Of a DNA stretch of 64,000 nt, positions 6,045 to 39,965 are shown one piece after another; position 1 is the first letter of the stretch; each line of letters starts with the position of its first letter. Source of the DNA: Escallonia rubra (Eukaryota; Streptophyta; Magnoliopsida; Escalloniales; Escalloniaceae); the NCBI GenBank assembly GCA_033065855.1, contig JAVXUO010001751.1, forward strand, positions 124,001 to 188,000. The letters are read 5' to 3'. The position numbers were made by a program, and so were the translations under genes. The notes under the pieces were generated by a model. That model was given only the letters and a program-made list of their open reading frames with translations, made no database searches and was not told where the DNA came from.

Positions 6045-6046
6045 TA

Positions 6047-6110
<64 letters not shown>
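6045..6110. repeat. (TA)n microsatellite
   Basis: An almost pure TA dinucleotide tract directly abuts the left terminus of the TIR element that begins at 6111. It is the first of five such tracts bounding the TIR elements to 16322. Confidence 0.95.
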
Positions 6111-6299
6111 AGGGAAAAGTGAATATAAGGCTAGCCTCACGCAACTTGCGTGAGGCTAGCGCTAAAACGACGTAGTTTTATAAAACAAATAGTCTTTTTT
6201 TTCCTATTTCTCTCCCTCTTTCTCTCCCCCCTTCCCACGATTTTCTTCCCATCACCGTCTCTCCGTCTCTCTGTCGCAGGCCGAAGCAACCCAACCCGC

Positions 6300-6470
6300 C
6301 AATCTTCCTGCGCCGGCCACCATCACACCCACCGTCGTCCATAACCGCCCCAATCTTCCTGTGCCGGCCACCATCACACCAACCGTAGCCCATCACCACC
6401 CCAACCTTCCCGTGTCGGTTACCATCACGCCTACTGTCGCCCATCACCGCCCCAACCTTCCCGTGCTAGC
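6300..6470. repeat. About 51-60-bp tandem repeat (GCCGGCCACCATCACACC unit)
   Basis: Three to four diverged copies contain GCCACCATCACACC..CCGTCGTCCATAACCGCCCC-type sequence. The 166-codon open frame from 6361 starts inside this array and has no recognisable domain. It is probably captured or low-complexity sequence, not a gene. Confidence 0.7.
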
Positions 6471-7447
6471 AAAATCTCATACCGAAATCACAAAGGATGG
6501 TCATCAATGGTGGTGCCAGCACCACCAATTTTTCCATCGCGAAGTGTATTTTACCTCTGTTGCAGTGCTTGATTTTGACGCACATATTAAAAATCAGCCA
6601 TTGCTTGTGTTATCTCTCTGTTATGTTTCTCTGCGGGGGAATGTCAGTCTCTGTGGTAGTGAAGGTTGCTGGTCTGCATTAAGAGAAGGTGGGTGTGATG
6701 GGGGCGACAGTGGCTGGATTTTGACGACAGTCCTGAAGCTCGTGGGGGGTGGAAACTATGAAGGTAGTGGGTTGGTAAAGACCTTTTTTGTGGCAAGAAT
6801 GGCTCTTGACGGTTGCCAACAATGGAAGGTTGGTAGTCTATGGCAGAGATGGTGGGTGTGATCACTACAAAGAATAAGCCCTTGAGTGACGGATTTTCCC
6901 GTCCCTAAAGGCCGTATATCCGTCGCTACAACTTCTAGCGACGGATAAACCATCGCTAAACGTCCCTCGTATAAATGGCCGTTGCTATAAGTTTTGCGAC
7001 GGAATTATAAAATCCGTCGTCTAATATAGAAATTTTGGCGACGGAATTATTTCTGAATTAGCGACGGAATATCAGTCGCTAATTATGTTTTACGTACTTT
7101 AATTTATTTTCTTTTTTTTTTTTTTTTCGACGGGATAAAATGTTTAGCGACGGAATTAATCCGTCGCTAAAAGTTAAAGTCATTTTTTAATTTTTTTAAT
7201 TTTTTAATGCCCAAACCTGTAATAAAAAATTCAAACCAATTGGGTCCCATCCTCCATCAACAATCTCAATATATCAAATGCACGATTAACAATCTAAAAT
7301 CATCGATTAACAAATCATCGATCAATAATCACAATTAACAACCTAAAATTATCAAACAAATAGTCAATGTTCACAACATTGTTCAAAATGTACATATCCG
7401 ATGCGATTAACTTAACATATTGCCTAATTACGCCTCATAGTTCAACA

Positions 7448-7884
7448 TTAGGAGAAAGGCTTTTCACAAGTGCTTTGATCAAACACGCTGACTTGAAAAC
7501 GCATTTGCCCCATGTGTTGAAAGACTACAAAGTCTCCTAGATGGAGGTCATGTTGTTGCACGAATTCGTTCCAACCCTCTTCGAAGCAAAGAACCTCTTG
7601 GCCAACCTTCTTCTTCAATTTAACAAGCCATGACCCCTTGCGGCTGGTTAAAGTTGCTTCAAATCTCAATGTGGTAAGCAATCGCCAAAATGCTACCGGT
7701 ATGGCCTAACATATTCATAATACAGTAAGACATGTAAGTTTTTAACCAAAGATAAAACTTTTAACACACACGAAAACATAGAGAAAGCGGGATGACATAC
7801 AAGTTCTGTATGAAAACTAGGCATCATGACCTTGAAGAAGTGCCTGTTGACTGAAACGTCCCTGTTCACCGAAGCATAAGCCAT
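7448..7884 (-). pseudogene. Captured B3 DNA-binding domain gene fragment (REM-like)
   Basis: Two minus-strand exons are visible: 7884-7801 (MAYASVNRDVSVNRHFFKVM..., the first B3 strand) and 7705-7448. The second starts AIPVAFWRLL, continues ...SWLVKLKKKVGQEVLCFEEGW and ...HDLHLGDFVVF, and ends in a stop. The junction GAACTT|GTATGT / TGTTAG|GCC is a proper GT-AG intron in phase 0. B3 domains of the plant REM family bind DNA in the nucleus. The copy holds nearly one complete domain with no internal stop. It lies entirely within a CACTA element and lacks the rest of any REM protein. It is most likely a transduplicated fragment, not a functional gene. Transcription is not shown by the sequence. 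Confidence 0.78.
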
Positions 7885-8794
7885 TTAACCTACTTTAACA
7901 TGAAAAACCAATCGATGATTATTCAATCGACGAGCATCAATTTCATAGCTGAATTAAATCTATCAAATTATGTTAAAGTGATGCTAAAAAAATAGATCCA
8001 CAGTGAGTTGTAGCTAAAATGACTACCACAAAAATCTCAACTACGCACATCATCATTTCACCACCCAAATAGCCACCTATGTCACGGAAGGTATTAACGT
8101 GGCTGCGATGTGGAATTTAGAGAGGAAGTTGCCGATTTAGGTAGTCTATACATAGCGTTAGTTAAGATTTAGGTAGTCTATACATAGAGGTCCTGGTGGG
8201 AGGTCTATATAGCTGGAAAATAGTTGTGATTTCTATCAATATTTAATTATGCCTGATCCTCAAGCTTTCTTAATTATGTTATGCAATAGGTTATCGATTC
8301 TGCTTATGCGACTTGTAAAGTTGAATCATAGAGCCAGTCAAAAAAGAACAATGTAATAATGACAGAGCAGTTTTCATTTCAAACGATGCAAATATAGGAT
8401 TCAAATATCTTGTTTGGAAGGTTCTGATTGCCTGAATTGAATAGTGAAACTGAAAAAAGATCGTACATTTTCTACAAAGAAGTCAAAAACAATATCACTA
8501 CTAGAATGCAGTTATGAAGTTAAAGCTGTGAATTTTAAATTAAAGCTGTGATCAAAGCAACCGTGCGTACCCTTTGTTTGGATGGCCTTTTTGGAATGTC
8601 TAAAATTTTGTGATGGAGGCTGACCCAGAATGCAGTATTTGGAGGCTCCTAATGTTTTTGTTTTAGCTCCATGTCTTTTGTTTAGTGTTTACTGTTTAAT
8701 AGAGCAGCTGCTAGCCTTATGGGAGAATGGCTTATGATTTCTCGCTAATTTCCTAAAGTTCTATACCCGTTTAAATTCTATTGTGTTGGAACAG

Positions 8795-9327
8795 GTATAT
8801 GACGTGACAAAGTTCTTGGATGATCATCCTGGTGGTGATGAGGTTTTGTTGTCAGCCACAGGTACATTATGTTGTAGGATTAATTAGACGCTGATGTTTA
8901 TGTTTCAAGTGTAACGATATGTTTATCTTCTTGCACATGGAAGTTTGCTTTAAGTTTTCAAGTCTTAACTTTGGACTCTTGACTGTTGAAGAAGCTGATG
9001 TCCTGGGAACGAATTGAAGCCAACTTATATGTGTATCTAGATTTCGGTCCAATGCTCCTAATGGTGTGTCGTGCAGGAAAGGACGCAACTGATGATTTTG
9101 AGGATGTCGGCCATAGTAGCAGTGCAAGAGCAATGATGGACGAATTCTTTGTGGGCGAAATTGACACAGCAACCATCCCCTCCAAGACCACTTACACTCC
9201 TCCCAAGCAGCCTCACTAAAATCAGGATAAGACATCAGAGTTCATCATCAAGCTTCTACAGTTCTTAGTTCCCCTGGCAATCTTAGGTGTTGCTGTTGGC
9301 ATCCGTTTCTATACCAAATCAGCCTAA
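8795..9327 (+). pseudogene. Captured cytochrome b5 gene fragment, exons 2-3 with a nonsense codon
   Basis: Exon 2 (8795-8861) follows an ACAG acceptor and encodes VYDVTKFLDDHPGGDEVLL, with the HPGG haem-binding motif. Exon 3 (9077-9327) encodes ATGKDATDDFEDVGHSSSAR with the second haem-ligand His. It ends in the hydrophobic tail LLQFLVPLAILGVAVGIRF that anchors these proteins in the ER membrane. The intervening intron (8862-9076) is retained. The first exon, which carries the N-terminal start, is absent. A TAA at 9217-9219 replaces a codon just before the membrane tail. In plants cytochrome b5 passes electrons to desaturases, hydroxylases and P450s. This copy is a broken passenger of the CACTA element. 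Confidence 0.88.
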
Positions 9328-11146
9328 GAATTGAGTGTATCGGGGAATTTGAACACCTTAGTAATAAGTTTATGTTGGCAGTCAAAACCCCAGCTATTTG
9401 TTGCTCTACATTGGAACTGTTACATTTAAGTAGTGGGAGGCTTGACTTAGATCTAGTAATGAGTATGTGCTTGTATTCTTTTCTGCCTGCTTTCTGAGAC
9501 TTGAGATTGCCTATCTTCATCATTCAAGTGCGTTATGGGGATCTGCCATTTTTGGACTAGACCTTGAGAAATAGTCTTAGGTTTTCTCTTCTCTTGTTTG
9601 ATGTTTCTTTTATGCACACCAAGCTTCTTGTTCTTGTTATTTTTGTTTCTAAATTGAGCCAAGGGTTGTATATGCAGGCTGGGCATGCTAGAAATGATCT
9701 TGTATTGGGCTATGAATGTCACCTCCATGAGGCTGAGATCTCTGGAGTGACGGAGCTTCTGCTGTCTTGTTTGTCCAATAGTTCATTCGTGTTAACTAGT
9801 CAAACGGTCAACTCCCAAGTCCCAACTGCCCTTTGCCAAGTGTCCACAATCCCCCTGCCAGTTGGCAGTTCGAGGAACCCAAAATTAGATCCACATGACT
9901 TGACATTTAAATGTTGCTTTCTCATTTCTTTTTCTTGGATGGCGACTTAATATTGTCTTTGTTTATCCTGGCACAATGGTGAACTCCAAGACAACGTATA
10001 GATCAAGATCTGATCCATTGACCAAGAATACAGCTCCAAATTTCGTTTAACTGCATCACTTGTACCAGGCAAAATTGGTATCAATGGTGGATTTACACTT
10101 ATATCTAGGTTGGTGAAGTTTGAGCTGATATGCGAAAGAGATAACTAAAACTATTATATTAGTGATGAGTACGCTAATTTAGGGCAATTGACAAATTAAC
10201 AAAAAATTGAACTTAAATTGACATACGAATCTAAATAAACCAGGCATAATTTAGGGCATGTAACCTAAATTGAAGACAAAATAACAAAAAATTCAGATAA
10301 TTTAGGGCAATTGACATACAAATCTCGAGGTGGGTACGACGGCGGCGGCATTGGTGGTGCAGCGGCAGTAGTGGGTTTCGTTGCGCGGCGATAGTGGTGG
10401 GTTTCGTTGCGGGGCGACGTGGAGGGCTTTGTGGGACGGCCGGAGTGCAAGGCTTGGTGGCGCGGCGTCGGGTGGGGGACGGGAGTGTCGCCGGAGCTGG
10501 GTCGCCGTAGAGAAGGGTTGCCGGAGGTGAGAACGGCGGTGGGTGGGTGAGAGCAGGTATTCAGAGAGAGAACGGGGAGAGAGAAAGAAACCAGATCTAT
10601 TTTTAAATGGAGGATCTTTAGCGACGGAATAACACCGTCGCTAAAACTCCGTCGGTGAATGTCTTATTATAAAGACTTTTTGCGACAGACTTTTTAGCGA
10701 CGGTTTTATTCCATCGTTTCAATAATTTAAAAAAAAACTCAAAATTACTAATTTTATAAAATTATTTAGCGACGGTAGATTCGTCGCTAAAAGTCCGCCG
10801 TTAAAAATACTTTTACCGACGGTGTCTTCCGTTGGTAATAGTATTTTGCAATGGATTTTTAACGACGGGATATTCCGTCGCTTAAAGACATGTTTAGCGA
10901 CGGAATACCTTCCGTCGCTAAAACTCCGTCGCCAAATACATATTTTCTTGTTGTGGATGGTGGCGGTGGCTTGCTATTGCCTGCGACAGAGTGAAGGAAA
11001 CAAGGAGAAAAACAACGAAAAGGGATAGAGAAAACAAGAAAAGAAAAATCGACTACATTTGTTTTAACAAAACTTTATCAAAATTACGCCGTTTTAGCCG
11101 CTAGCCTCACGCAAGTTACGTGAGGCTAGCCTTATATTCGCTTTCC

Positions 11147-11148
<2 letters not shown>

Positions 11149-11183
<35 letters not shown>
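11149..11183. repeat. (TA)n microsatellite between TIR elements 1 and 2
   Basis: A pure TA run forms the only sequence between the right end of one TIR element (CTTTCCCC) and the left end of the next (GGGAGCTGATCC). Confidence 0.95.
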
Positions 11184-11186
<3 letters not shown>

Positions 11187-12183
11187 AGCTGATCCGTTGA
11201 TAGCGCTAGCAAAATATGAGAAGTTGTAAACACGATCTAACCGTCCACGCGAGATCTGTGGAGGGTTCAGAACTTTTTTTTTGCATTTTTTAAGTCTGTC
11301 CGCTACATAATGTAGCGGAAATTTTTTTGACAAAAATATCCTTTTAAGTCTATCCGCTACATAATGCATCGGAAGAGTAGGTAGGCACTTTTCTCTTTTT
11401 CTCTCCTTTCCCTCATTATGACATGTTTCTCTCTCTTATTCTCTCTCTTTAGTCGTTAGAGTCTTCCTCTGTCCTTTTTCTCTCATCCTCCTCTCCCTTC
11501 CTTTCTTCTCTCTCTCTCTCTCCTGAGGTGCATCCTAATTGAAATATCCTATTTGAGAACTTCACATCTAGAGTCCTTTAAAATCGAAGGATCCAAATTC
11601 GTAATAACTGCTGAGTTTCTAACTCTTAATGCTGATTGTGCTTGCTGCTTATTATGATATTCTAGTGCAAGGGTCTCAAATGAATTGGGTGTTGGGCGGC
11701 TAGAAGGTGCTCATTTAGCTGTTTGTGTTGTGGTTGTAATAGCCATTTTGGAGGGTGCAATTGTTGGAACAACAACAGTTCTTGTACGCCATGTTTGGGG
11801 GAAATTATATAGCAATGAAGGATAAATGATAGGATATGTGGCAAAAATGATGCCACTGCTTGCTCTATCTAGAGGTGTCAAAAGGGCCGGGCGGCCCGCG
11901 GGCTGGCCCGGCCCTCTTGGTGAACAGTGACGGCCCTAAACATAAGGGCTTGGGGCCAGGGCTTGGACCAGGCCAAGAAAATCTGGGGAAAAGCCCGGGC
12001 CCGGCCCGAAAAGGCCCGCTTTTGACCCGGCCCGAAAAAAGCCCGGTTTTGGCCCGGTTCAACATCTATCTTCTTCTCACCTTCTCTTCACTCTTCAGTA
12101 CCCATCTCACAAATCCAAACCTGAAACCTTTCAATCAAAACCTCACACAGGCTTGCACCCAAGAATCTAGCCCGAAATTGGCC

Positions 12184-12448
12184 ATGACACCGTTCCAGGT
12201 TCCTCCACGAGTGCACCGCCTACCAGAGTTCCGTCGACCTCAGCCTCGACGCCATCGTCTCCCACAGCGCCGACCTCGACGCCATCATCTCCCACAGCGC
12301 CGACCTCGTCAAGTCCGACTCCGACCTCGTCCTGTTCAACGTCGAATCCACCTCCGATCTCGCCGACCGCGTCAGCCTTAAGGTCCTCGACCTCGCCCAG
12401 TCGCGCGTCTCCCACACCCTCCTCCGCATTGACGGCCACCCTCCATAA
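12184..12448 (+). pseudogene. COG4: Captured 5' exon fragment of COG4 (conserved oligomeric Golgi complex subunit 4)
   Basis: The frame from about 12203 reads LHECTAYQSSVDLSLDAI, continues with SDSDLVLFNVESTSDLADRV and ends LDLAQSRVSHTLLRIDGHP before a stop at 12446-12448. This matches the N-terminal coiled region of plant COG4, a tethering-complex subunit for retrograde Golgi traffic. The start codon context at 12184 (AMT) is out of frame with the rest because of a small indel. ATCGTCTCCCACAGCGCCGACCTC is duplicated in tandem with slight change (12256-12310). The piece is inside a hAT element and cannot encode the whole roughly 750-residue protein. Confidence 0.8.
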
Positions 12449-12540
12449 TCATCCCTGCAACGACAGCAGCGGCGGACGCCGGCAGTGAAGGCTTCTGCCG
12501 TCAGATCCCACGCCGGCAGTGAAGGCTCCTCGGATGAAGC

Positions 12541-12664
12541 CAGTTTCACAAAACAGGGGAGAATAGGGGGAAAGGCGAGAGAGAAATGGGCCAGTTTCAC
12601 AAAACAGGGGAGAATAGGGGGAAAGGCGAGAGAGAAATGGGCCAGTTTCACAAAATAGGGGCAT
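12541..12664. repeat. Roughly 59-bp tandem duplication in the hAT element
   Basis: The unit containing CCAGTTTCACAAAACAGGGG and AGAATAGGGGGAAAGGCGAG occurs twice and begins a third time. The copies are nearly identical, so the duplication looks recent. Confidence 0.88.
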
Positions 12665-13517
12665 TTTTGTGTTTATACCCCATAGGGCCTGGAGAAGAAC
12701 AAATCTCCCAAGAAAAAAATAGGCCTGGGCCGGCCCTAGGCCCGGCCCTAAAGTTAGGGCCTAGGGCTTGGGCCTGGACAGGGCCTCCATTTCCTAGCTT
12801 TAGGCCCGGCCCGGGCCCGGCCCGATTTTCAAGGCCCGAAGCCCTAAATGGCCCGGCCCGCTTTTTGGCCCTCTGGGCCCGGGCTGGGCCGGCCCAAGCC
12901 CGGCCCATTGACACCTCTAGCTCTATCAGACTTCTTGGAGGGGTTTCAATGCGTGCTCTCAGGTTCTATCTTCTCGGTTTTTAGTTGATGTTGTATCTTC
13001 GCTTTTCCATACAAAAAGATCACTAAATCTAATGATTCTCTAGGCTCTTCATTGAATTTTACTGAAACCTTTTAGATCTCCAGGAACTTTTAGAGGATGT
13101 GGATGGAAAAATCTTTGTGCAAGCATCAACCTTGGGGCTTATTGTGTTGTAGCAATTCCTTGTGCTGTCCTCTTTGCATTTGGCTTACATATTGGAGGCA
13201 TGGTTGGCCTCTCTCTCTCTCTCTCTCTCAATTAGGATGCACTTAAACTTTTAACGACCGGTCGAAAGGATGCACCTCAGGAGAGGGAGAGAGAAAGAGA
13301 GAGAGAGAAAGAGAAAGAGAAGAAAGGAGGATGAGAGAGAAAAGAGAAAGGACAGAGGAAGACTCTGACGATAGAAGTGAGAGAATAAGAGAAAGAAACA
13401 TGTGATAATGAGGGAAATGAGAGAGAAAGAGAAGTGCATGTCTACTCCTCCACTACATTATGTAGCAGACAAACTTAAAAGGGTATTTTTGTAAAAAAAA
13501 AATCGTCCGCTACATTA

Positions 13518-13519
<2 letters not shown>

Positions 13520-13565
<46 letters not shown>

Positions 13566-13568
13566 CAT
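13520..13568. repeat. (TG)n(TA)n microsatellite between TIR elements 2 and 3
   Basis: A TG run changes into a TA run and directly abuts GGGGAGCTGATCC. The right terminus of TIR element 2 has been lost into this tract. Confidence 0.93.
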
Positions 13569-13569
13569 G

Positions 13570-14956
13570 GGGAGCTGATCCGATCTGGCCGTCCACGCGA
13601 GATCTACGGACGGTCCAGATCTTTTTTTTGCGTTTTTGTAAGTCTGTACGTTACATTATGTAGCGGACAATTTTTGGACAAAAATACCCTCCAGCTCCAT
13701 TGTGTAACGGACGAGTTGGCATTACTTTTTCTCTCATTCTCTCTCCTTCCAGTCATTATTTTTTTGACATGTTTGTCTCTCTCTCTCTCTCTCTCTCTCT
13801 CCCCCCCTTTCTGTTATCAATGCTCGTGTCCTTCTCTCTCATTTCTCTTTCTCTCAAGAATCGCCAAGATCAAATTCTGGAGCTCAACCTTCACCATCGA
13901 AATGGAACTGGACGACGGCGTCGTTTGCTGTTGCTGATATAACTGAAAAGTCTCCGGCTAGCTTCGTTGATTAGCCTGCAATCGCTTTATTGCCGCCATG
14001 AAGGAATTCGAAACCGGTGGCTCGTCCACGCGCTGCGGTGAGGAAGGCAGCTGGTCCAGTGACACTCCCAAACACAGCTTGAGGGCCTTGAACTGGACGC
14101 GCGACGGGTACGTACTGTTCCTAGCGCGGCCGCATGGTTCCCGCAACAGCGAGGATGGAAGCAAAAGAAGAGCCGACACCGCGTAGAGTGACATCGTCTG
14201 CGGGTGACACTAAAGGCTTCTTCGAGGGCTCGTTCGGCCTCATGCTTCAGGCATTGCCTCGCTGTGCTGACCAACGTCGGCATCTACACAGCTTGTACAA
14301 AAAAACTGGAATATGAGGCGTTTGTAGCCCATGAAGGGGGTATAAATAAGTTAATGGGGAAAAGAATGAAGGGCATCTGGTATTCTTGTTCACTGACTTG
14401 CTTGGGAGTGGCCCAACAAAGGGGATGTTTTGGTGTCAGTCTGCTCACCTCTGAGCAGATAACAGTTGCCAAAAATTTGCTTCGAGTTGACTCATTAGGG
14501 CCTGAGACTATTGTTTTGCTCTTCGCCAGAACTTTGCAAGGATTTCAGTTTACTTCCTAAACTCGATCGTTCGAGGAAATCCAGTGTCTGGGGCATTTAC
14601 CTTCGTACCTGCGAAGGGTTCGACTTTAATGCATTGATGAGAGAAAGAGAAATGAGAGAGAAGGACACGAACATTGATGACAGATATGGGAGAGAGAGAG
14701 AGATGTCAGAAAAATATTGACTGGAAGGAGAGAAAATGAGAGAAAAAGTAATTCCAACTCGTCCATTACACAATGTAGCGGATAGAGCTTGAGGGTATTT
14801 TTGTCCAAAAATTATCCGTTACATAATGTAGCGAACAGCGAACGTACTTAAAAAATGCAACAAAAAAAAAATCTGGACCGTCCGCAGATCGCGCGTGAAG
14901 GGTTAGATCGCGCTAGCAGCTTATCCTATTTTGCTAGCGCTCTTAACGGATCAGCT

Positions 14957-14958
<2 letters not shown>
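13570..14958. mobile_element. TIR element 3 (GGGAGCTGATCC family) carrying an antisense SMXL fragment
   Basis: The left terminus GGGAGCTGATCCGATCTGG and the right terminus (reversed: GGAGCTGATCCGTTAAGAG) are inverted repeats. They share the CCGTCCACGCGAGATC block, a T-run and the GTTACATTATGTAGCGGA signature. The left arm lacks the short GATAGCGCTAGCAAAAT segment that the right arm keeps. CT-rich and GA-rich subterminal tracts mirror each other. The (TA)n tract on the right flank is shared with the next element. The interior is captured host DNA. Confidence 0.85.
13857..14283 (-). pseudogene. SMXL: Captured N-terminal fragment of a D53/SMXL6-7-8-type protein, antisense to the element
   Basis: The minus strand from the ATG at 14281-14283 reads MPTLVSTARQCLKHEAERAL, the typical start of D53-like SMXL proteins. 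A small deletion shifts the frame near 14185. It then continues [40 protein letters not shown] and [20 protein letters not shown]. After a TAG at about 13958 it ends with SSSISMVKVELQNLILAIL. These are the Clp-N repeats of SMXL proteins, ClpB-like repressors degraded on strigolactone signalling through D14/MAX2. About 145 codons are represented, with at least one frameshift and one stop. Sequence 14284-14640 is probably the source gene's 5' flank (inference). Confidence 0.87.

Positions 14959-15000
<42 letters not shown>
14959..15000. repeat. (TA)n microsatellite between TIR elements 3 and 4
   Basis: A pure TA tract of 42 bp separates two outward-facing GGAGCTGATCC termini. Confidence 0.95.
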
Positions 15001-15002
<2 letters not shown>

Positions 15003-15997
15003 GAGCTGATCCCTTGACAGCGCTGGCAAATGGAGTTAAGTTGCCAACGCGATCTGGCCGTCCACGCGCGATCTGTGGACGGCCCAGATCTTTTTTTTGC
15101 GATTTTTTTAAGTCTGTCCGCTACATAATGTAGCGGACGATTTTTGGACAAAAATACCCCTCTAACTTGAGGGAGTCAAAGATGCTGCAAAACCCATCCG
15201 CTACATTATGTAGCGGACGATGGATGCTCAATTTTGCCCATCATCTCCTTCCTTTCTAACTTGTCTCTGTGCTTTGATGTTTGTTATTTTGCCCATCGAG
15301 ATCAAATCAAACCAAAAACAAACCCAAATTGGTGGTGGCGGCGTGAAAGGGAAGAACGAGGCAATGACAGAACCACCGATCGTTCATCCCAAGCAGTCTC
15401 CATCGCCCACAACCACCACCACTCTGCCACCGGCGCTGAACCCATCACCACCACCACCACCACCACCATCCGAACCCATCACCACCGCGACAGAACCACC
15501 GTCACTCCACCACAACCATCCAGTCACCCATTCCAGTCAATAATTACAAAATCCTCGCCGGTGAGGCCCGCATGCGGCTCCACTATGCTGACCTGACCAA
15601 AGCTTCCTCCCTTAGCCGTTGGCCCGACGATCTCCCCTCCGATGAGATCTACAAACCAAACCATTGCCGCCAATGCCCCAACGTCATGCCATCCGACGTT
15701 GTGACAAGCAACTGCTGCCTCGGCCGAAAACTCGCGATGCTTCTTCGCGATGCTTCAGCGATGGGATATCCTTCTTCGCGATGCTTCAGCGATGGGATAT
15801 CCTTCTTCGTCAGATCTGGGATATCCTTCTTCGCGATGCTTCAGCGATGGGAACTCGCGATGCTTCGTCAGATCTGGGATCTCCTTCTTCGCAATGCTTC
15901 GGCAGATCTGGGATCTCCTTCTTCGCAATGCTTCGGCAGATCTGGGATCTCCTTCTTCGCAATGCTTTGGCGATGCTTGGTCTCATGGGCGGTGGTG

Positions 15998-16035
<38 letters not shown>

Positions 16036-16296
16036 GAACCTCGGGGACAGAGGAAACACAGAAAGGAGAAAGACAACGGATGTCTCTGTAAAATAGTCCG
16101 CTACATTATGTAGCGGACAGATGTAATCGGGATTGAGGGGTATTTTTGTCCAAAAATCGTCCGCTACATTATGTAGCGGACAGACTTAAAAAAATCGCAA
16201 AAAAAAGATCTGGGCCGTCCACAGATCGCGCGTGGACGGCCAGATCGCGTTGGCAACTTAACTCCATTTGCCAGCGCTGTCAAGGGATCAGCTCCC
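15001..16296. mobile_element. TIR element 4 (GGGAGCTGATCC family), near-identical 165-bp TIRs
   Basis: 15001-15168 and 16132-16296 are almost perfect inverted copies over about 165 bp. They include GGGAGCTGATCCCTTGACAG, CCGTCCACGCGCGATCTGTG and TCCGCTACATAATGTAGCGG. This is the best-preserved member of the family here and presumably the youngest. The payload (15215-16080) has a Pro/Thr-rich ACC-repeat coding-like stretch, then ILAGEARMRLHYADLTKASS-type frame at 15550-15660 that I do not recognise, then short direct repeats. No transposase is present. Confidence 0.9.
15728..15975. repeat. Interspersed 31-34-bp direct repeats in TIR element 4
   Basis: Two related units alternate: CGATGCTTCAGCGATGGGAT..CCTTCTT and GCTTCGGCAGATCTGGGATC-type copies, about eight in total. 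A GA-dinucleotide run follows at 16000-16035. The long open frames here are by-products of the repeat period. Confidence 0.85.
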
Positions 16297-16322
16297 TATA
16301 TATATATATATATATATATATA
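16297..16322. repeat. (TA)n microsatellite to the right of TIR element 4
   Basis: A TA tract joins the right terminus of element 4 to a copia retrotransposon fragment. Confidence 0.93.
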
Positions 16323-16673
16323 AACCTGGACGCTCTTGATACCACTTGTTACGAAATCGCTCTAGACAAATATGTATAGAACACGATAACCAAACAAGAG
16401 AACACAAGAAAACTGAGAGAACTCAAATCTACTTTGCACAAGTCAGATTTACAACATCCCCTTACGTGTATCTCTCAATTGTTTTCCTACTCAAAGAAGG
16501 ACTCTTCTCTCTTGACATTAAACACAATACAAGACATCTTACTTATACTAGAGATAAGCAGGGATCTTCTCTATCCAACCAATGTGGGACAAGGTGTCTT
16601 ATATATTGAGGATCAAGTTGCAACCTTATTTGAGTAATCAATATGGGATATAAATACAAGACATATATCAACA
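16323..16673 (-). mobile_element. Truncated Ty1/copia element: LTR plus primer-binding site
   Basis: In minus orientation an LTR runs 16673 to 16347 (TGTTGATATATG...TTTCGTAACA). AGTGGTATCAAGAGC, a tRNA-Met-type primer-binding site, follows it. The LTR is the same family as those at 36381 and 41155 (shared AAGAAGGACTCTTCTCTCTTGAC and ACGTGTATCTCTCAATTG-type blocks). Internal sequence ends after about 25 bp at the (TA)n tract, so the rest has been deleted or displaced. Confidence 0.82.
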
Positions 16674-21606: not shown

Positions 21607-24231
21607 TCACCAATAATCCTTACAAGAACAAGCGCCATCTCTGAAATGATGGAACCTTCGAACATCCCTCACAATGATCTCCCTCTCAACAACTTTCGAC
21701 ATAATCTTGGTAGCAGCATGGCAGTCATTGCAAACTCTCAGGTTCTTTGCAACTCTAATGGTAGTGCCGGGAGGGGTATTGAGGATACCAAAGGCTATAG
21801 CTAACCTCTCGCTGTGACCACACAGTAGATTTTCCTTTTCCTCCTCGTCAACATTCCGTAAAACGCAAGAAGTATCAGGCACGTAACCTTCCTTTTTCAG
21901 TTTCTCTGACAGAATCTCAAGGAAGTTACGGAGCTGCTCGCTTTGCGGGTGTGATGCATCGCCAGCCGTGAACCTATGAACCTCATCACCAAACTCAATC
22001 CAACTACACCCAGGTTCTTTTCTTACTCCCTTTTTCATCATGTTCTTTCTCACCTCTACTGCTTTCTCCCAAAGCCCAGCAGATGAGTAGATATTAGAAA
22101 GTAGAACGTAGTGGCTAGCCACGTCTGGCTCCAAGCGAAGAAGGTTATTGGCTGCAATCTCACCAAGCTCTACGTTTTGGTGTACACGACAAGCACCGAG
22201 CAAACTGCTCCAGGCACCTACTTTTTCGTGTTTATGGGGCATCGCATTGACAAGTTGATATGCTTCCGTCAGCTGACCCGCACGACCATGCACGCCGACA
22301 GCACAAGCATAGTGTTCTGAGGTAGGTTCAACCCCATGCGCGTTTTTCATATTGTGAAACAAGTTTCGACCTTCACTTACCATTCCAGAGTGACTTAGAG
22401 CTGCAAAAGTTGCAATGAATGTAACCTCGTTAGGCTTCACTCCCTCCCTCACCATGCCCTTAAAAAGTTCAAAGGCTTCTGCTCCTTTTCCATGCATCCC
22501 ATAAGCCATGATGATAACATTCCACGTGATCACGTTTCTAGTGGGCATGTCATCGAAAACTTTCCTCGACAAATCCAAGCAACCACATTTGGCGTACATG
22601 TCAACCAACGCACTGCCTACAGCAACATCTGTTGCTAATACATTTCTAACGGCATACGCATGGATTTCTTTACCTTTTGCTAGTGCTGCCAATGCCGCAC
22701 AGCCAGGAAGGGTCGTCATTAGTGTAATTGTATTTGGTTTATGAGAAACTATTTCTTCATCAAAATCATCACCATTCTTGTTATTTTCTTCTGCTCGTTG
22801 CATCTCGCGTAGTAGAACTAGTGCCTCTTCATTGCATTCACAAACTACATAACCTGTGATCATGGTATTCCAAGAAACTATATCTCTGCTCTCCATACCA
22901 CCAAATATACTTCGTGAAATTTCAACTTTCCCCATCCTAGAGTACATGTCCATTAGTGCATTTTGCACATACCTGTCCCCCCCAAAGCCCAGCTTCTCCA
23001 CGTAGCCATGCATACCTTCTTTGTCAGAGAATGCTATGCAGTGCACACAAGCTGGCAGGACACTCGAAATTGTGGTGGGATTAGGAAAAAGTCCCGAAGC
23101 ATCAACCATTTCCATGAATAGCCTTAAAGCATTCTCGTAAAATCCATTTTGCGTGTAACCAGCAAGCATAGCATTCCAAAGCGCAAGTTTTCTGTCTAAG
23201 ATACCATCAAACACTCTACGCCCACTTTCAACTTGTCGACAGTTGCAATACATGTCCACTAAAGCGCCACCCACATAAGAAGTGGCTATTAAACCATCAT
23301 CATTCCTTAAAAGCATAAGCGTGAACCTCTTTTCCAATATCTAACAATTCCAAGTGGAGCATGCAGGGAGAACGCTTGAAATCGTGACCCCATCTGGCTT
23401 AATTCCCTCAGAAACCATAAGCTTGAAGAACGTTACAGCCTCGAAAAACCTGTCATTTTGCGAGAAAGAGCTTATCATTGTGTTCCATGAAACCATATCG
23501 CGTTCATCAAACAATCCAAACACAGCTTTTGAATCATTGATTCTCCCCAGCTTAGCATACATTGCCATCAAAGCATTGTTCGTAAACGTCTTCCTGTCGC
23601 CTACTCTCAAACTATACCCGTGCACTTGCTTCCCAAGCCGTAGCCCGTCGCGCTTGCCCACATTGGAACACGCAAGCGCCACACTCACCAGAGTAAACGA
23701 ACTCGGCTCCTGCCCCTCCGCTCCCATCTGTCTAAACAAGTCCAACGCCAGCTCCCACTCCTCGAACTGGCACAAAGCCGAAATCATCGAGTTCCACGAC
23801 ACCTGGTCTCTTTGAGGAATTCTATCAAACACCTTGGCTGCATCACGTATGTCCCCACATTTGCCGTACATGTTGAGTAGGGTATTGGCAACGGTTACTG
23901 AAGACGAGTCAAACCCATGTTTGACCGCGCCGGCATGGATCTGTTTCCCGGTGTTCATGTCGTGGAGGCCAGTGGCGGCCTTCAAGGCGGCCGGGAAAGC
24001 GAAAGTGTCGGGCTGGACATTGGCTGTCATTTGGACGAATGTGGAGATGGCTTCGTGGAAGTGGCTTGAGCGGGTTTGGGAGCGAAGGGTCTCGATCCAT
24101 GAGGCGGTGGAGGGTGGTTTTGAGGTGGGTCTTGAAGAAGGTTTGGTCGGGATAGTGATGGTGGTGGTGGCGTGTTTGTTGGGGGGTGATGATAAGGATA
24201 GTGGAGGCAGGGAGGGTGTCAAAGATGACAT
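21607..24231 (-). CDS. OTP84: PLS-class pentatricopeptide repeat protein with E and DYW domains, OTP84-like (interrupted)
   Basis: The minus-strand frame starts at 24231 and reads through PPR motifs (VANTLLNMYGKCGDIRDAAK, NALMAMYAKLGRINDSKAVF) to ISSVLPACS. It resumes as SYVGGALVDMYCNCRQVESG and ends at 21607 with the DYW domain: HSERLAIAFGILNTPPG, a CNDCH zinc motif and terminal GACSCKDYW. The sequence closely resembles Arabidopsis OTP84 (At3g57430), a chloroplast C-to-U RNA-editing specificity factor. The N-terminus is Ser/Pro/Thr rich, consistent with a plastid transit peptide. At 23341 a TAG splits the frame: a GGG run is GG at 23356-23357 and an AAA run is AAAA at 23309-23312. These two one-base homopolymer changes, about 45 bp apart, compensate. 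Everything else is intact over about 870 codons without introns, as is usual in the family. It is either a very young pseudogene or an intact gene with sequencing errors. Confidence 0.9.
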
Positions 24232-24299
24232 TGGTGGTTATTTCTGTTGATGGAGTTCAAGCTTTTTCCTCGGGAAGAGGAGGTAAGTGTAAATATGTT
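24232..24299. promoter_or_regulatory. 5' leader or proximal promoter of the PPR gene, cut by a MULE
   Basis: Only 69 bp lie between the start codon and the MULE terminus. The original upstream DNA should continue at 29942, beyond the element. I see no TATA box in the 69 bp. The role is inferred from position. Confidence 0.4.
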
Positions 24300-24764
24300 G
24301 GGTGAATTACACTAAACCCCCTGAGGTTTACACTTGTGTCTCACGAAGGATCCTAATGTTCCATTTTTAACAACTAACACCCCAACTTTGCATTTTCGAT
24401 CCAATTGGACCCAAAATTGACTTTCCGTTACAAGAGCTGTGGATGGCCGTCGCTATGTGCACCTCACGTGATATTTTTTAAGGGCAAATTTGTCAAATCT
24501 TAATGTAGTTAAACAAACACTTAAGCTAAAGGAGAAATGAGAAAACATCTAGAGAATTTGAACGATCGAATCTGCTCGAACTACCATCACAATCTAGGGC
24601 ACAAAATTTAGTTTAGGGTTTGATTCGTGGGGACCAGAGGACGATCAAGGCGTTTCTTGTTGGATCTTCAATGGATGATGTGTTGCAGTATATGAGGGGA
24701 CCAGAGGAGTTTACGGTACGTTCGATTATGTAAAACGACCATTGTATGCTCAACATTTTAGGGT

Positions 24765-24957
24765 TTTTAAGTATGCAATCGAGTAAAAATCTAGGATTTT
24801 TTAAGTTTTAAGTATGCAACCGATTAACATTTTAGGTTTTTTAAGTATGCAATCGAGTAACTTTTTAGGTTTTTTAAGTTTTAAGTATGCAATCGATTAA
24901 CATTTTAGGTTTTTTAAGTTTTAAGTATGCAATCGAGTAACATTTTAGGTTTTTCAT
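24765..24957. repeat. Short tandem repeat in the MULE subterminal region
   Basis: Five imperfect copies contain AAGTATGCAATCGAGTAAC followed by TTTTAGGTTTTTTAAG. Members differ by a few substitutions and by loss of a short TTTAAG block. Confidence 0.8.
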
Positions 24958-25616
24958 TGTGATTCATTGATGAAATTGGCAATATGCATATGTGCAAACG
25001 TGACAGAATGATTTTTTTTTCTTGTTATAGTCCCGTGATTGCTATTTAGAATATGTTATTGTGTATGTATTTGTGATTATCTGTGGTTAATTTTAAAAAA
25101 TAAGCAAGTGCATGCTTTATGTAGTGCAACTTTTTCAGTGATATACGAATGGGTCTTTGTCTATATATGATCATGGCATTACTTTTACTTCTATAGTACT
25201 TTGATAGCCTGATACATGTGGTGGTCAACCACCACATGTTTGTTATAGTTTATAGGTCAATTTTATAGTTTAATGTCCCCTGTTAGGCAGACAATAAATG
25301 TTGCCAAATTTTTTTCTTTTATGCTCAGGCCCAAGTTCTTCATTGTTTACCCTCAGAGTACGTCATGGTGGTGAATTTAAAACTCGGCAAACCACTAGTT
25401 ATGTAGGGGGAAGTATCGCCTTTTTTTTACTATGGCCTAAGTGATATAATATCTTTATTGTTGTTTGATGACATGGGTTAGGGATTAAGGTATGAAGAGT
25501 TATTAGGATATTATTTCAAGGAGCCTTTATGAGAGGCATATATAGACATAGCATTTGATGACTACATTCACTACATGGTTGAGTCTTTGCCTAGAAATAG
25601 AGTTGTTGACATTTAT

Positions 25617-28600
25617 ACTACCATCAAAATGGTGTTAAGTATATTAACAAAGGAGTTGACAATGACTTGGGATCTGATACTGTGGAGGTGCTAAGTGTAC
25701 ATTATGCTAGTCAACAGAATAGTGATGATGCAAGTGAGGATGAGGAAGCCACTGATGAGGAACAAAGTGAAGAGGATAATGTTGACAGTGGTCAAGGTGG
25801 TGTTAGGGATGTGGGTGGTGATGTTAGTGAAGAAAATGAGTCTATGTCTGATCCTGACTATGAAGATGATTCAACTAGTGGTAAAGATGATGTTATGTTT
25901 AACAAGAATATATGAGATGATAGTGAATGAGCTGGTGTTGACAAAGATGTTGGGAAAAGGGTGGAAAGGCAAAGTAGTTCATTTGATTATGCAGATACAG
26001 AGGAGATCAAGTACAATTTTATACATAGTGATGATGAGGTTGAGAGTGCAACTATGTATCTTGAGTATAATAAAATAACGATTATGAGCAACCATCTTTT
26101 GTGGTAGGGATGATGTTTTCTAGCATCAAGGAGTTGAGAGATGCTATTTACAGTCATGCAGCTAAATGGGGGAAAGTCTTGAAGATGATAAAGAATGAGA
26201 GGTATAGAATCAGGGCAAAATGTGCAGCTGAGGGTTGTGAGTGGATGATATATGGTTCTTACATGCATAGTGAACACACTGTTCAGATTAAGACATTAGG
26301 TCCTGAGCACACATGTGGCAAAAAGGATAAAAATTGGATTATTAACTCAACTTGGTTAGCTCAAAGATACATTGATGACTTTAGGTCTAATCCAAAATGG
26401 CATGTACATTAAATGAGGGAGAGTCTGAAAAGTGAATTTTGTGTGAAACTAAGCAGGGCAAAATGCTACAGAGCTAGGGTTAAGGCCAAGAAGATGATGG
26501 AGGGGTCTGTTGCTGAGCAATATGCCAAATTAGAGGATTATTGTGAGGAGTTGAGGAGAAGCAATCCAGGGAGCACAATTGTGGTTAAAATAGATGAAGA
26601 TTTGCCTGATAGGGGTTTTCCGGGGTTGTAGATAGGCTTGGGTGGTCTTAAAAAAGGGTCTGTTAGAAGGTTGTAGACCATTCATTGGTCTTGATGGGTG
26701 TCATGTCAAGGGACCATATCCAGGGCAATTGTTAACTGCAGTTGGGGTTGATGGAGATAATGGAATGTATCCATTTGCATATGCTGTGGTAGAAATAGAA
26801 AACACAGCATCATGGAAATGGTTTATAGAGCTGGTTGTGCAAGACTTAGGCATTGTTAATTTCAGTGGATGGACATGGATGTCTGACAAGCAAAAAGGGC
26901 TAGTAAATGCTCTTGAAGATGTAGTCCCAACTTCAGAACATAGGTACTGTGCAATGCACCTTCTCCAGAATTTCAAAGATGAGTTTAGGGGCAAGGCTCT
27001 TCAAGATTGTCTATGGGATTGCTCAAAAGCAAGTTATGTTCAGAGGTTTAAAAACCATATGTCAGAGATGAACACCATAAACCCTGATGCCTTTAAATGG
27101 TTGAGTGATAAGCCACCACATCAGTGGAGTAGGTCCCATTTCCAGACTTACACCAAATGTGACCAAGTGACAAATAACTTGAATGAAAGTTTTAACAGTA
27201 AAATTGTCCAAGCAAGATGTCTGCCTATCCTAAGTATGTTGGAGTGGATCAGGGTGTATCTAATGACTAGGCTAAGGAAGAAAAGAGAGAAAGCCTTAAA
27301 AAGATTTGGAAGCTTGTCTCAGTATGTGCCTAGGGTTGAAAGCAAGATTGAGAAGGCTAAGGTGGCTGCTGGTTATTTCTATGCACTAGGATCTGGGGAT
27401 GGGGAATATGAAATCAGAGGGACAAATGGGTCGCAGTATGTAGTGCATTTGGAGTATCACACTGGCTTATGTAGGGTGGGGGCATTAACTGGGATACCAT
27501 GGTCACCTGCTGTAACAGCAATGTTTCAGGCAGGCACAGACCCTGACAACTATGTCCATGAGGCTTTAAAGAAAGAGATCTACATGAAAGCTTATGGACA
27601 AGTAATTCATGGTTTGAATGGTCAAGAAATATGGAATAATAGTGCCTTACCTAAGATTCTTCCTCCCCACCATAGAGTGCAGCCTGGAAGACCTAAGCTA
27701 GTAAGAAGAAGAGGTGTACATGAGCCTAGGAAAGTGGCTGAAAACCCTTTCAAACTGCATCCCAAGCCTGACTGTGTGAAATGTTCATTGTGTGGAAACC
27801 TTGGGCACAACAGAAGAACATGTGCTAAGAGAAAGAAGGCAGAAGGGCAAGGCAGTCAAGGTTTAGTTCTAAATGATGGAGGGGTAAGTACTGGGAATAC
27901 AGTGAGAGCAACTCAGGAGCCAAGGCAAGGAAGTGAAGGTGCAAGGTAGATAAATGAAAGAGCAAGGCAGGAAAATGCAGGGACAAGGCAGGGAAACATA
28001 GGGGCAAGGCAGGGCAGAGTGAAGCTACCTGTAAGTTACTTATTTGGGCATATTGTTAGTGGGTTATTGTCCCTATGTGTACTCAGTGGTGCCTTTAATA
28101 ATGTTGCAGATAAGAAAGGCAGGAAAGGGGGCAGAAAGAGGGGGTGCACAACAAAGTGAGACAGCTAGACCAAAGGTATTATGACATACTATTTTTTAAT
28201 TAGTGGCATACTGTTTTTTTAATTAGTGGCCTCATTACTTGTCCTATTTTTTAGAAAAATTAGTGGTCCCATCTCCGTGGTCCCATTTCTTTAAGCTGCA
28301 GCATGCCACACACCAAGTAAACATGCAACCTGTTACACTAAATGTCAACATGCAGCATTCAACTCAACCTAACTTGGCAGGGACTTCAAGTCAGAATTTG
28401 AGTCAGGTAAGTACTAATTTTTTAAATGTTTAGTTGTGTGATTTTGTTTTTCAATTTACCATATCTCATGTGTTTTAGTTTTTGTGTGAGCAGAGGATGA
28501 GTTCAAGACAACAATTACCTATGAGATCAGACAACCATAGTGGACCTATATATGGGATGTTTAGGGCTGCACCACAGCCACCACCTGTTATGGTAAACAT

Positions 28601-28748
28601 TGGAAATATTCAAGTTAGGCCTGCATCATACATGATCAATGGAAGGAATGTGGTCACTGCCTCATCACTTAGAGCAGGGATCAATGCAAGCCAAAGTGCA
28701 AGTGGTGTAAGTGCAAGGACAAGAGCCAGTGATAAGTCAAGAGATTGA
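25617..28748 (+). pseudogene. MULE transposase (MuDR family), broken by stops and frameshifts
   Basis: Parts occur in family order. An acidic N-terminal region is at 25667-25915. A MuDR DNA-binding domain is at 26101-26412 (FSSIKELRDAIYSHA, EGCEWMIYGS, GPEHTCG). A linker follows at 26413-26631, then the catalytic core at 26642-27949, with FIGLDGCHVKGPYPGQ (first Asp), WMSDKQKGL (second Asp) and NNLNESFNSKI (Glu). The C-terminal zinc knuckle CSLCGNLGHNRRTC is at about 27775-27820. The residual C-terminal frames at 28239-28748 follow intron-like gaps. An in-frame TAA (26410-26412), a TAG (26629-26631) with a shift, and a frame break at about 25910 disable it. The element would need a transposase in trans. 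Confidence 0.92.
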
Positions 28749-29941
28749 AGAAGCAAAATTTGATCATATCCATTTTGTGTTAATATGGGGGTTGTGTGGT
28801 TGAAATTTGTAATGTTAAGACAATGCTAAGGGATTGTGAAGTCAGGGGTGTTACTTATGTACTTTTGTTGTGAAGATGAAGTTTACCTTTGTAAATGTTG
28901 TTGGATTAATATTTAATACTTTGGACAACATTTGGCAGGTATTAATATGAAGTAAAATATTTTTGAAGTTGTGTTTGTGGTTTGTTATTCTTATGTTGGA
29001 ATGTACAGGTTGTATTTTTTGTCATTTCATTTTTACTTCAACTTACACGTACCCTCACCAACACATCCCTACATTCGCACAGATACACAGGGGATATGCT
29101 CTACAGAAATTTTGCCAAATTTCATTCCATTTCCACTTCATTCCATTCTATTTCCACTTCCTGCTAACTGGGAAATGGGAAGTGGTTCCTCTGCCCCTGT
29201 CTCTAACTTCAGGTTCTTAAACCATACAGCTCAGCCATGTCACTAGCAACATGAGCTTCCAAATCATTGCCTGCCTTTCTAGCCTTTTGATTTTTCTGAG
29301 TAACCCTCTAATCGTAGCCCTTAACCTTTTATTGGAAGGTGGATCAAGCCATATGAAGTATCCACAACCTCCATTCACCTGCATATTCAACGTTCCCTTA
29401 TTATGCAAATTGTAAAACTGTATGCCACACAAGACATAAACATGCAACCTACAAATTTTTAACAATTATCCGGTACTTTTCACAACCAAGAAACCTCCTT
29501 CCTGGATTTGCATCTGTCCAAGAGGTCCTAAGCTTTGCATTTTTCCCACATAAACACACGTTCCCTTCCATTTTCAGATTAACAGGGGTAGTATATGTGT
29601 GTCTGTGTGTGTGAGAGAGGGAGAGAGGGAAGGAGTGAGAGAGAGGGAGAGAGAGAGAGAGACTGTGGGGTAGTATATGTGTGTGTGTGTGTGTGGAGAG
29701 GAGAGAGTGTCGGGAACAAGAACCTATTTCCCTCCAAATGCTTTAATGTTGTTGGTTACCGAAAATGCCCCTCATGGGTAACGACCATCTACAGCTCTTG
29801 TAACGGAAAGTCAATTTTGGGTCCAATTGAATCAAAAATGCAAAGTTGGGGGTGTTAGTTGTTGAAATTGAAACCTTAGGGTCCTTTGTGAGACACGGGT
29901 GTAAACCTTAGGGGGTTTAGTGTAATTCACCCAAAAATGTT

Positions 29942-39300: not shown

Positions 39301-39623
39301 AATCTCTACGGAAGAATTAGACTTGGGAATTAGTAAAACTTCCAAAGGGTGTGAAAGCTAGTGGATACAAGTACGTGGGTAAAAACGAAAGATCAGACTG
39401 GTAGTAAAAGAGTATTCTCAAAGATAGGGAATTGATTATAATGAAATCTTTTTGCTAGTGGTGAAGCACACTTCTATTAGATTGATATTATCCATTGTAT
39501 CAGTGTATAAATGGAGTTAGAACAACTTAATGTGAAGACAGCTTTCCTCTATGGTGATTTAGAGGAGAAGATCTACATGCAGCAACCTGAAGGATTTATT
39601 GAGCCTAGAAAGAAGGACTATGT

Positions 39624-39946
39624 CACTACAAGAAAAGACGTCTTTTGCGACGGAGTTTTAGCGACGGCATCGATTCCGTCTCTAAAAGGAGTTTTACCGA
39701 CGGAAACCTCCGTCAGTAAAACTCCATCGTAAAATATTATTTAAGCGACGGATTTATTTCGTCACAAAAACCTCCGTCGGTACCGACGGAAACCTCCGTC
39801 AGTAAATCTCCGTCGGGACGAATAGGTCTTCACCGACGGACTTTTAGCGACGGAGTTATTCTGTCGCTAAAAGCCTATTTAACTCTCAGATCTGGGTTGA
39901 ACTATCACTGCTTCTCTCTTTGAAAGAACTTTTTAGCTTGCACACA
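39624..39946. mobile_element. CACTA remnant inside copia RT, right end replaced by a palindrome
   Basis: The left terminus CACTACAAGAAAAGACG at 39624 and dense TTTTAGCGACGGA-type repeats identify a CACTA family member. The target triplet TGT occurs at 39621-39623 and 39947-39949. The expected right terminus (CTTGTAGTG) is absent. The insert instead ends in GCTTGCACACA, an inverted copy of the adjoining copia sequence. Confidence 0.8.
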
Positions 39947-39965
39947 TGTGTGCAAGCTAAAAAGT
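39928..39965. repeat. Perfect 38-bp palindrome at the CACTA-copia junction
   Basis: The arms ACTTTTTAGCTTGCACACA and TGTGTGCAAGCTAAAAAGT pair with no loop and no mismatch about 39946/39947. The right arm is copia RT coding sequence; the left arm is its inverted duplicate. Confidence 0.95.

Follow-up and report, generated by a model that had tools for sequence, protein, structure and literature searches.

In the 64,000-nucleotide stretch of the Escallonia rubra genome analysed here (the window), positions 6112–16296 are occupied by four inverted-repeat elements, E1 to E4, with (TA)n tracts of 26–61 bp at each joint (Table 1). The alternation of four elements with five TA tracts, one of them partly TG, that had been proposed in a preliminary description could be placed by coordinates. 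All four elements are present, but one of their eight termini is absent: the right end of E2 is broken at ~13519, within the subterminal palindrome CCGCTACATTATGTAGCGG. This palindrome had 19 matches against 0.01 expected (both strands, 10 sites); a search of prokaryote genomes gave no match, and a single viral contig had a match of only ~21–25 bp. On its right the array is bordered by a truncated copia LTR fragment, which stops at the right tract and has no partner on the left. The ends of E2, E3 and E4 belong to one family (A), and E1 represents a second (B). Kinship between the two, the "related designs" of the preliminary description, was rejected because the likeness is confined to pyrimidine-rich stretches and lies at or near the level of shuffled sequences.

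Table 1. Features of the array, in window coordinates (TSD, target site duplication).
Feature	Position	Strand	Remarks
TA tract left of E1	6051–6111	.	One interruption
E1, family B element	6112–11148	+	GGGAAAAGTGAATATAAGG ends; 50-nt inverted repeat, 94% complementary
Element nested in E1, presumably CACTA-like	6863–10955	.	3-bp TSD GAT; ends and TSD read from sequence
B3 exon in presumed CACTA-like element	7451–7705	minus	Pfam B3 2e-12
Cytochrome b5 exons in presumed CACTA-like element	8738–8884, 8983–9216		Pfam Cyt-b5 1.7e-9 and 1.9e-7
TA tract, E1/E2 joint	11149–11183	.	
E2, family A element	11184–13519	+	Left end intact, right end without distal part
MATE transporter segment in E2	11541–13272	+	Matches C1120 and C911; interrupted by hAT-like element
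hAT-like element nested in E2	11870–12919	.	TSD GCTCTATC; ends and TSD read from sequence
Weak COG4-like stretch inside hAT-like element	12188–12445		COG4_N 3.9e-5, below cut-off
(TG)n(TA)n tract, E2/E3 joint	13518–13565	.	(TG)n ~13518–13539, (TA)n 13540–13565
E3, family A element	13570–14958	+	Left end: internal deletion after first 12 bases
TA tract, E3/E4 joint	14959–15000	.	
E4, family A element	15001–16296	+	162-nt ends, 100% complementary
GDP-mannose dehydratase (GMD) piece in E4	15556–15654	+	99 bp; PDB 1n7g 9.2e-5
TA tract right of E4	16297–16322	.	

Leaving aside its nested element, which we take to be CACTA-like from the superfamily consensus, E1 is ~0.94 kb long. The B3 and cytochrome b5 exons were rejected as cargo of E1 itself because they lie inside that nested element. 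The Pfam search recognised no cargo of E1's own, and searches that included Pfam gave no identity for that of E3, so recognised exons of their own are present in two of the four elements, not in at least three as had been claimed. In E4, the GMD piece matches a GMD frame on contig C440 at 85 of 99 bases. The MATE segment of E2, which apparently retains its intron, was detected by Pfam (MatE, 6.5e-4, below the cut-off) and by PDB entry 5y50 (7.4e-5), and MATE-like frames are located elsewhere in the genome, on C911 and C1120. These matches support the suggested gene capture and give both elements the host gene pieces with a source elsewhere in the genome that characterize Pack-MULEs. Gene domains were also found at other family-A loci, namely sacsin at L018 and L030 and Aha1 at L028; the Aha1-like stretch had no PDB match at E 0.1, and Pfam matched none of 7 further stretches.

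The exact end pattern of family A occurs 3175 times in the genome, as opposed to 0 for the reversed control, and 1119 of the 3175 ends directly follow TATATATA, a count that covers this one register, the alternative being ATATATAT. We sampled the best-scoring 40 of 3045 candidates, a choice that leans to E4-like copies. After loci L002–L009 were dropped because they overlap other loci, 30 of 32 loci (31 fetched plus the window, which contributed E4 only) yielded 37 complete copies; L027 and L032 had one terminus only. TA repeats lie on both sides of 30 of the 37 sampled copies, and two (L018 and L021) are located in ordinary DNA with a perfect 9-bp TSD. The converse pattern, with most copies in non-TA DNA next to a longer TSD, is not what the sample displays, and the strong targeting to TA repeats postulated earlier is upheld by the genome-wide end counts and the sampled flanks alike.

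The register of the flanking repeats is equally informative. In 16 of 17 full-ended copies with perfect TA repeats the same base adjoins the element on both sides (p 2.7e-4), which is the register expected of a 9-bp duplication. This test leaves out 12 of the 37 copies (in 2 a terminus could not be recognised, and in 10 the TA repeats are not perfect on both sides), and the ends of a further 8 are shortened; among all 30 TA-flanked copies the base is the same in only 21, and L011 and L040 are unexplained even when shortened ends are allowed for. For family A only, the 9-bp TSDs and the odd register (16/17) agree with the duplications of ~8–11 bp made by MULEs. TA-flanked transposons, the TAFT elements, were reportedly described in maize by Wang and Dooner in 2006 (cited in PMC5907723 and PMC4486113), with expansion of the tract after insertion; the register test holds despite tract-length change.

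A candidate mobiliser was identified on contig C85, where a copy of 7.1 kb that has family-A ends contains an unbroken frame for a FAR1-type MULE transposase (PF10551, 3.6e-33; FAR1, 1.3e-12; SWIM, 5.4e-5). Its ends form a 254-bp inverted-repeat alignment, including a few tract bases, and match family A at up to 134 of 155 positions, but the E4 ends match them at only ~77% over 142 bp. Together with the 162-nt ends of E4, this alignment gives family A the long terminal inverted repeats typical of MULEs, as well as a relative with a transposase. The C85 enzyme probably moves family A in trans. Another transposase-bearing MULE, at 24298–29934 of the window, was rejected as a partner of family A: its ends are different, it is not flanked by TA and its frame is broken. 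No such relative was found for family B: the comparison of E1 ends with the C85 element scored 18, against up to 30 for shuffles, and nothing was found that links this family to the C85 transposase. Family B, for which no mobiliser was found, presumably works like family A.

Arrays of this kind are not confined to the window. We counted 118 same-family junctions genome-wide (control, 0) and mapped arrays on C2357, C1395, C1749 and C1553, each with a different combination of elements; one comprises seven elements, and that on C1395 has the order A-B-A and includes a second family-B element. Families C and D, looked for in five flanks chosen by eye, are neighbours at 11 of 32 loci by hand count. 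In addition, C2954 holds a second E2-E3 block, which has different flanks and diverges by 5–8%. The same (TG)n(TA)n junction joins them there; the similarity ends on the right within a TA tract, and the left end is missing.

With a probability of roughly 0.8, the array is made up of two end families of non-autonomous Mutator-like elements that prefer (TA)n and have stacked serially; since several of them contain copies of host gene pieces, they count as Pack-MULEs. Elements of both families would insert preferentially into (TA)n microsatellites, with a 9-bp target duplication in family A. Insertion into TA would leave a TA tract on either side, and because the tract is kept, a later element could enter it, so that elements come to lie end to end and none is interrupted. 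The choice of TA is likely a property of the transposase complex. Stacking by serial insertion is likewise probable.

Growth of the arrays mainly by recombination between TA tracts, through ectopic exchange or the insertion of circles by homology, appears unlikely. Circles and homologous recombination have been proposed for the SaTar elements (PMC5907723), and this route would fit both the E2-E3 block on C2954, with its different flanks and its similarity ending in a TA tract, and the truncated copia fragment that has no left partner. However, under homologous exchange the two sides of an element should be independent of each other, whereas 16 of 17 full-ended copies are in register; the two copies with ordinary 9-bp TSDs and the differing element combinations on C2357, C1395, C1749 and C1553 also speak against it. 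The E2-E3 block and the one-sided copia fragment do show that recombination or deletion has a part in shaping these loci. Misassembly is less probable still. In its favour, all tracts consist of one and the same simple repeat, and no continuation of the copia fragment is present on the left; against it, the assembly was built from nanopore reads with a mean length of 9.4 kb (PMC10759652), as opposed to tracts of only 26–61 bp, the E2-E3 junction is present on a second contig and 118 same-family junctions occur genome-wide. Another TA-duplicating superfamily (e.g. Tc1/mariner), or Micron-type MITEs unrelated to MULEs, would fit the TA flanks alone and can practically be dismissed given the 9-bp TSDs, the ends of ~160–250 bp, the copy with such ends that holds MULE, FAR1 and SWIM domains, and the same base on both sides in 16/17 copies, where a 2-bp TA duplication predicts differing bases.

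Elements arrayed in this way have known counterparts, compared here with the available portions of the papers cited. The earlier comparison with Micron-type MITEs fits less well than one with Mutator-like elements (9-bp TSD, long ends, MULE transposase copy), although Micron itself has been re-assigned to MULEs (PMC5907723). A close parallel may be drawn with the SaTar elements of guayule, rice, sorghum and citrus (PMC5907723), which are likewise non-autonomous MULEs with microsatellite flanks, TA in most cases (here on both sides of 30/37 sampled copies), form arrays in which the repeats join unrelated families without nesting (here 118 junctions and the mapped arrays), have ordinary TSDs in some members and share similar ends with autonomous MULEs, which are defective there. 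Their TSDs are 10 bp in guayule and 9 or 10 bp in citrus, as opposed to 9 bp in family A; guayule families measure ~400–1700 bp; rSaTar1, 3 and 5 are classed as non-Pack-MULEs, whereas several Escallonia members carry gene pieces; and the recurring two-element block is a further difference. MuTAnT of Medicago truncatula (PMC4486113) also targets TA microsatellites, makes a 9-bp TSD outside TA, has variable terminal G/C runs and has a large relative with a mudrA-like transposase, which has been compared with Jittery; it differs in its 218 copies, mostly of 200–300 bp, and the available portion mentions no gene capture. The Ac-mMITEs of pineapple (PMC8449440) are similarly MULE-related and TA-flanked, with 9/10-bp TSDs and non-nested clusters separated by nearly pure TA, but they are short MITEs, and no identical clusters were found among them, whereas E2-E3 recurs. 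Pack-MULEs (PMC13317346, PMC9168764) share MULE ends around host gene pieces, but the portions available make no mention of stacking or of a preference for TA microsatellites.

The end-to-end array, which with gene-capturing members was earlier regarded as unusual, is therefore not new, microsatellite-joined arrays of such elements having been published in 2018 (PMC5907723) and 2021 (PMC8449440), and is best read as a variant of the SaTar/MuTAnT kind with high copy number and gene cargo. An undescribed family in Escallonia rubra is plausible. A literature search with the end sequences matched 30 papers, and none of the 20 listed was about transposons, judging by the titles. Whether arrays of microsatellite-targeted MULEs form by insertion or recombination is an open question (PMC5907723), for which this one genome offers thousands of ends, copies with ordinary TSDs, locatable gene sources and a candidate transposase. 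With TA repeats as their target, gene-carrying elements could multiply while doing little damage, and captured exons would come to lie side by side.

More unusual than the array itself is the recurrence of the E2-E3 block. Since the E2-E3 pair is present at two locations whose flanks differ, and the left end of E2 and the right end of E3 are identical at 151 of 176 positions, neighbouring elements might conceivably move or be copied as a composite unit via their outer ends, a tentative reading that we consider rather doubtful; because the left end is missing on C2954, exchange within TA tracts fits equally well. If composite units did move, TA targeting would build up multi-gene cassettes and go on to disperse them. 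On C2954, the copy of E2 lacks the hAT-like insertion.

Five TA tracts alternate in the window with the four inverted-repeat elements E1 to E4. Pairwise comparison of their ends revealed a common end family (A) in E2–E4, with 151 of 176 bases identical between E2 left and E3 right and 100 of 109 between the left ends of E3 and E4. The ends of E1 (family B) are unrelated to these, so that the "two related designs" of the preliminary description do not hold. A CACTA-like element nested in E1 holds exons for B3 and cytochrome b5, and a nested hAT-like element in E2 shows weak similarity to COG4; their superfamily labels are putative, being based on ends and target site duplications (TSDs) read directly in the sequence and on the consensus ends usual for each superfamily. 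To the right, the array's last TA tract abuts a copia LTR fragment that includes the beginning of the internal region; this fragment is 83% identical to 36381–36754 and does not continue left of the array. A longer copia copy with two LTRs is present elsewhere in the window. The E. rubra genome was assembled with Canu from nanopore reads of mean length 9.4 kb (PMC10759652).

Coordinates of the features discussed (window positions unless a contig is given)
Feature	Position	Description
E1	6112–11148	family B
E2	11184–13519	family A; right end missing
E3	13570–14958	family A
E4	15001–16296	family A
copia fragment	16320–16673	right flank of array
PPR-DYW gene	21607–24237	
separate MULE	24298–29934	
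copia copy	36381–41482	two LTRs
terpene synthase exons	52371–53969	Pfam match within 53529–53969
family-C-like stretch	58852–58964	77.6% over 116 bp
solitary end	59560–59571	GGGAGCTGATCC
L054	C85:60797–67874	candidate mobiliser
C2357 array	C2357:32741–42528	

The E4 end was used to search the assembly (566,129,122 bases), in which the window occupies C2688:124001–188000. At least 57 matches were listed, and the best 40 of 3045 first-look candidates were scored; 31 fetched loci and the window gave 32 loci, a sample biased to E4-like copies. Thirty of these loci contained 37 complete family-A copies, 30 of which are flanked left and right by TA (9 or more of 10 bases matching), in agreement with the proposed targeting of TA repeats. 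In ordinary sequence, two copies (L018 and L021) are bordered by perfect 9-bp TSDs; the flanks of the remaining five are mixed or altered. Genome-wide, the end pattern GGGAGCTGATCCNTTG occurs 3175 times (1572 + 1603; reversed control, 0), and TATATATA directly precedes 1119 of these ends, with one TA register counted.

Because a TA tract changes length by steps of two, its register is kept, and a 9-bp duplication predicts identical bases to the left and right of an element, whereas one of 2, 8 or 10 bp predicts different bases. The same base was found in 16 of 17 copies with full GGG/CCC ends and 10/10 TA on each side (p = 2.7e-4; exception, L011), and in 21 of 30 when all TA-flanked copies were counted. 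In all five copies lacking just one terminal G or C (L019, L025, L030:2334, L033:4391 and L039:305), the register is flipped, as though the TA tract had taken that base's place in phase instead of the base being deleted. L040, with two terminal bases lost on one side, does not fit this pattern. With in-phase replacement allowed, a post hoc reading, 23 of 25 strict copies agree, the exceptions being L011 and L040.

The transposase-bearing member that the preliminary description had suggested looking for appears to exist on C85: L054, the one pair opened among end pairs 5–10 kb apart, has family-A ends and an uninterrupted MULE transposase frame of 783 codons with MULE, FAR1 and SWIM domains. 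Its arms are 92.9% identical over 254 aligned bp, which include a few bases of the tract. Compared with family A, its ends are identical at up to 134 of 155 bases; the match to E4 is about 77% over 142 bp, and there is none to the ends of E1. It is flanked by a TA tract on one side and by TATATA and another family-A end on the other. Among the best matches of the transposase, the named proteins are mostly FAR1-RELATED SEQUENCE 5-like. Two antisense frames (L054:5428–6447, minus strand) encode two parts of an Ulp1-type protease domain, recalling the ULP-carrying MULEs. Vandal elements carrying KIU have been described (PMC13317346). The L054 transposase may be the one that moves family A. The separate MULE in the window has ends of about 155 bp (GGGTGAATTACACTAAACCC) and lacks TA flanks; the frames encoding its MULE and MuDR DNA-binding domains are broken.

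Earlier work on SaTar (PMC5907723), MuTAnT (PMC4486113) and pineapple Ac-mMITEs (PMC8449440) has established both TA targeting by MULEs and the existence of non-nested arrays; for the last-named elements, 46.1% of full-length copies are reported in 4024 clusters, none identical. In E. rubra, two ends separated by a 15–45-base spacer occur at 118 places (control, 0), and by our own reading 48 of the 50 spacers listed contain a TA run, one being (GT)n and one degenerate. The C2357 array comprises six family-A elements, one of them short with its right end identified by eye, and one family-C element, followed by another A end. C1395 carries A-B-A, both families as in the window, C1749 three elements and C1553 two. 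A hand count found a neighbour across the TA tract at 11 of 32 loci, seven of family A or B and four of C or D. At least two further TIR-like families share TA tracts with family A (L020, L025, L017, L040, L032): C, with the end GGAGCCRATCC..., and D, with GGGGATCGATCCCC.... The family-C-like stretch and the solitary end of the window, the latter adjoining a (CG/CA)n repeat, are decayed members, one of them beside a non-TA dinucleotide repeat. The element that opens the C2357 array (L030:202–2070) has flanks that form a short inverted repeat around it.

The E2–E3 block recurs on C2954, where E2, without the hAT-like insertion and its first 157 bases, is followed by a broken TG/TA junction and E3 (94.9% identity over 529 bp and 91.6% over 2131 bp). 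Since the same junction is found there, that of the window is not a local assembly error. This copy is unlikely to be an allele, given the divergence and the differing flanks: on C2954, a retrotransposon-like frame upstream (by eye) and, beyond the TA tract downstream, an end like family D (83% over 53 bp). The block may have moved as one unit or been exchanged within TA tracts.

The piece captured by E4 matches Arabidopsis GDP-mannose dehydratase (GMD; PDB 1n7g, E = 9.2e-5, 32 residues); the histidine-rich part of the query drew many weak chance matches in the PDB search. Thirteen genome places match this piece, six at 99–100%, which are E4-type copies, and seven at 73–86%. Among the seven, C440, the one examined in detail, has a 326-codon GMD frame that runs up to the boundary of the retrieved sequence (TIGR01472, 507.5 bits; cut-off, 415), identical to E4 at 85 of 99 bases, and on C2850 and C79 the similarity to E4 extends beyond the GMD piece. 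Six of 40 translated interiors contain the GMD motif and eight more have the backbone without it (five of the eight aligned), a distribution that fits stepwise gain of the piece, although loss may be the alternative. The MATE transporter segment of E2 has three further genome places; C1120 and C911 match E2 in the cargo only, at 84–93%, in a single continuous stretch including a non-coding gap between the two coding frames, which we read as an intron. Because of this apparent intron, the segment was probably copied into E2 at the DNA level. The C1120 and C911 frames match matE as fragments, under the curated cut-off. Of ten further cargo stretches, three match sacsin or Aha1 above the cut-off, two match PPR below it and five had no match. 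Among the papers covered by the literature search, judged by title and opening of the abstract, we recognised none on gene-capturing members in such arrays. TAFT elements of maize (Wang and Dooner 2006) are another TA-flanked kind, and we do not claim priority. The window also contains the terpene synthase exons and the PPR-DYW gene.
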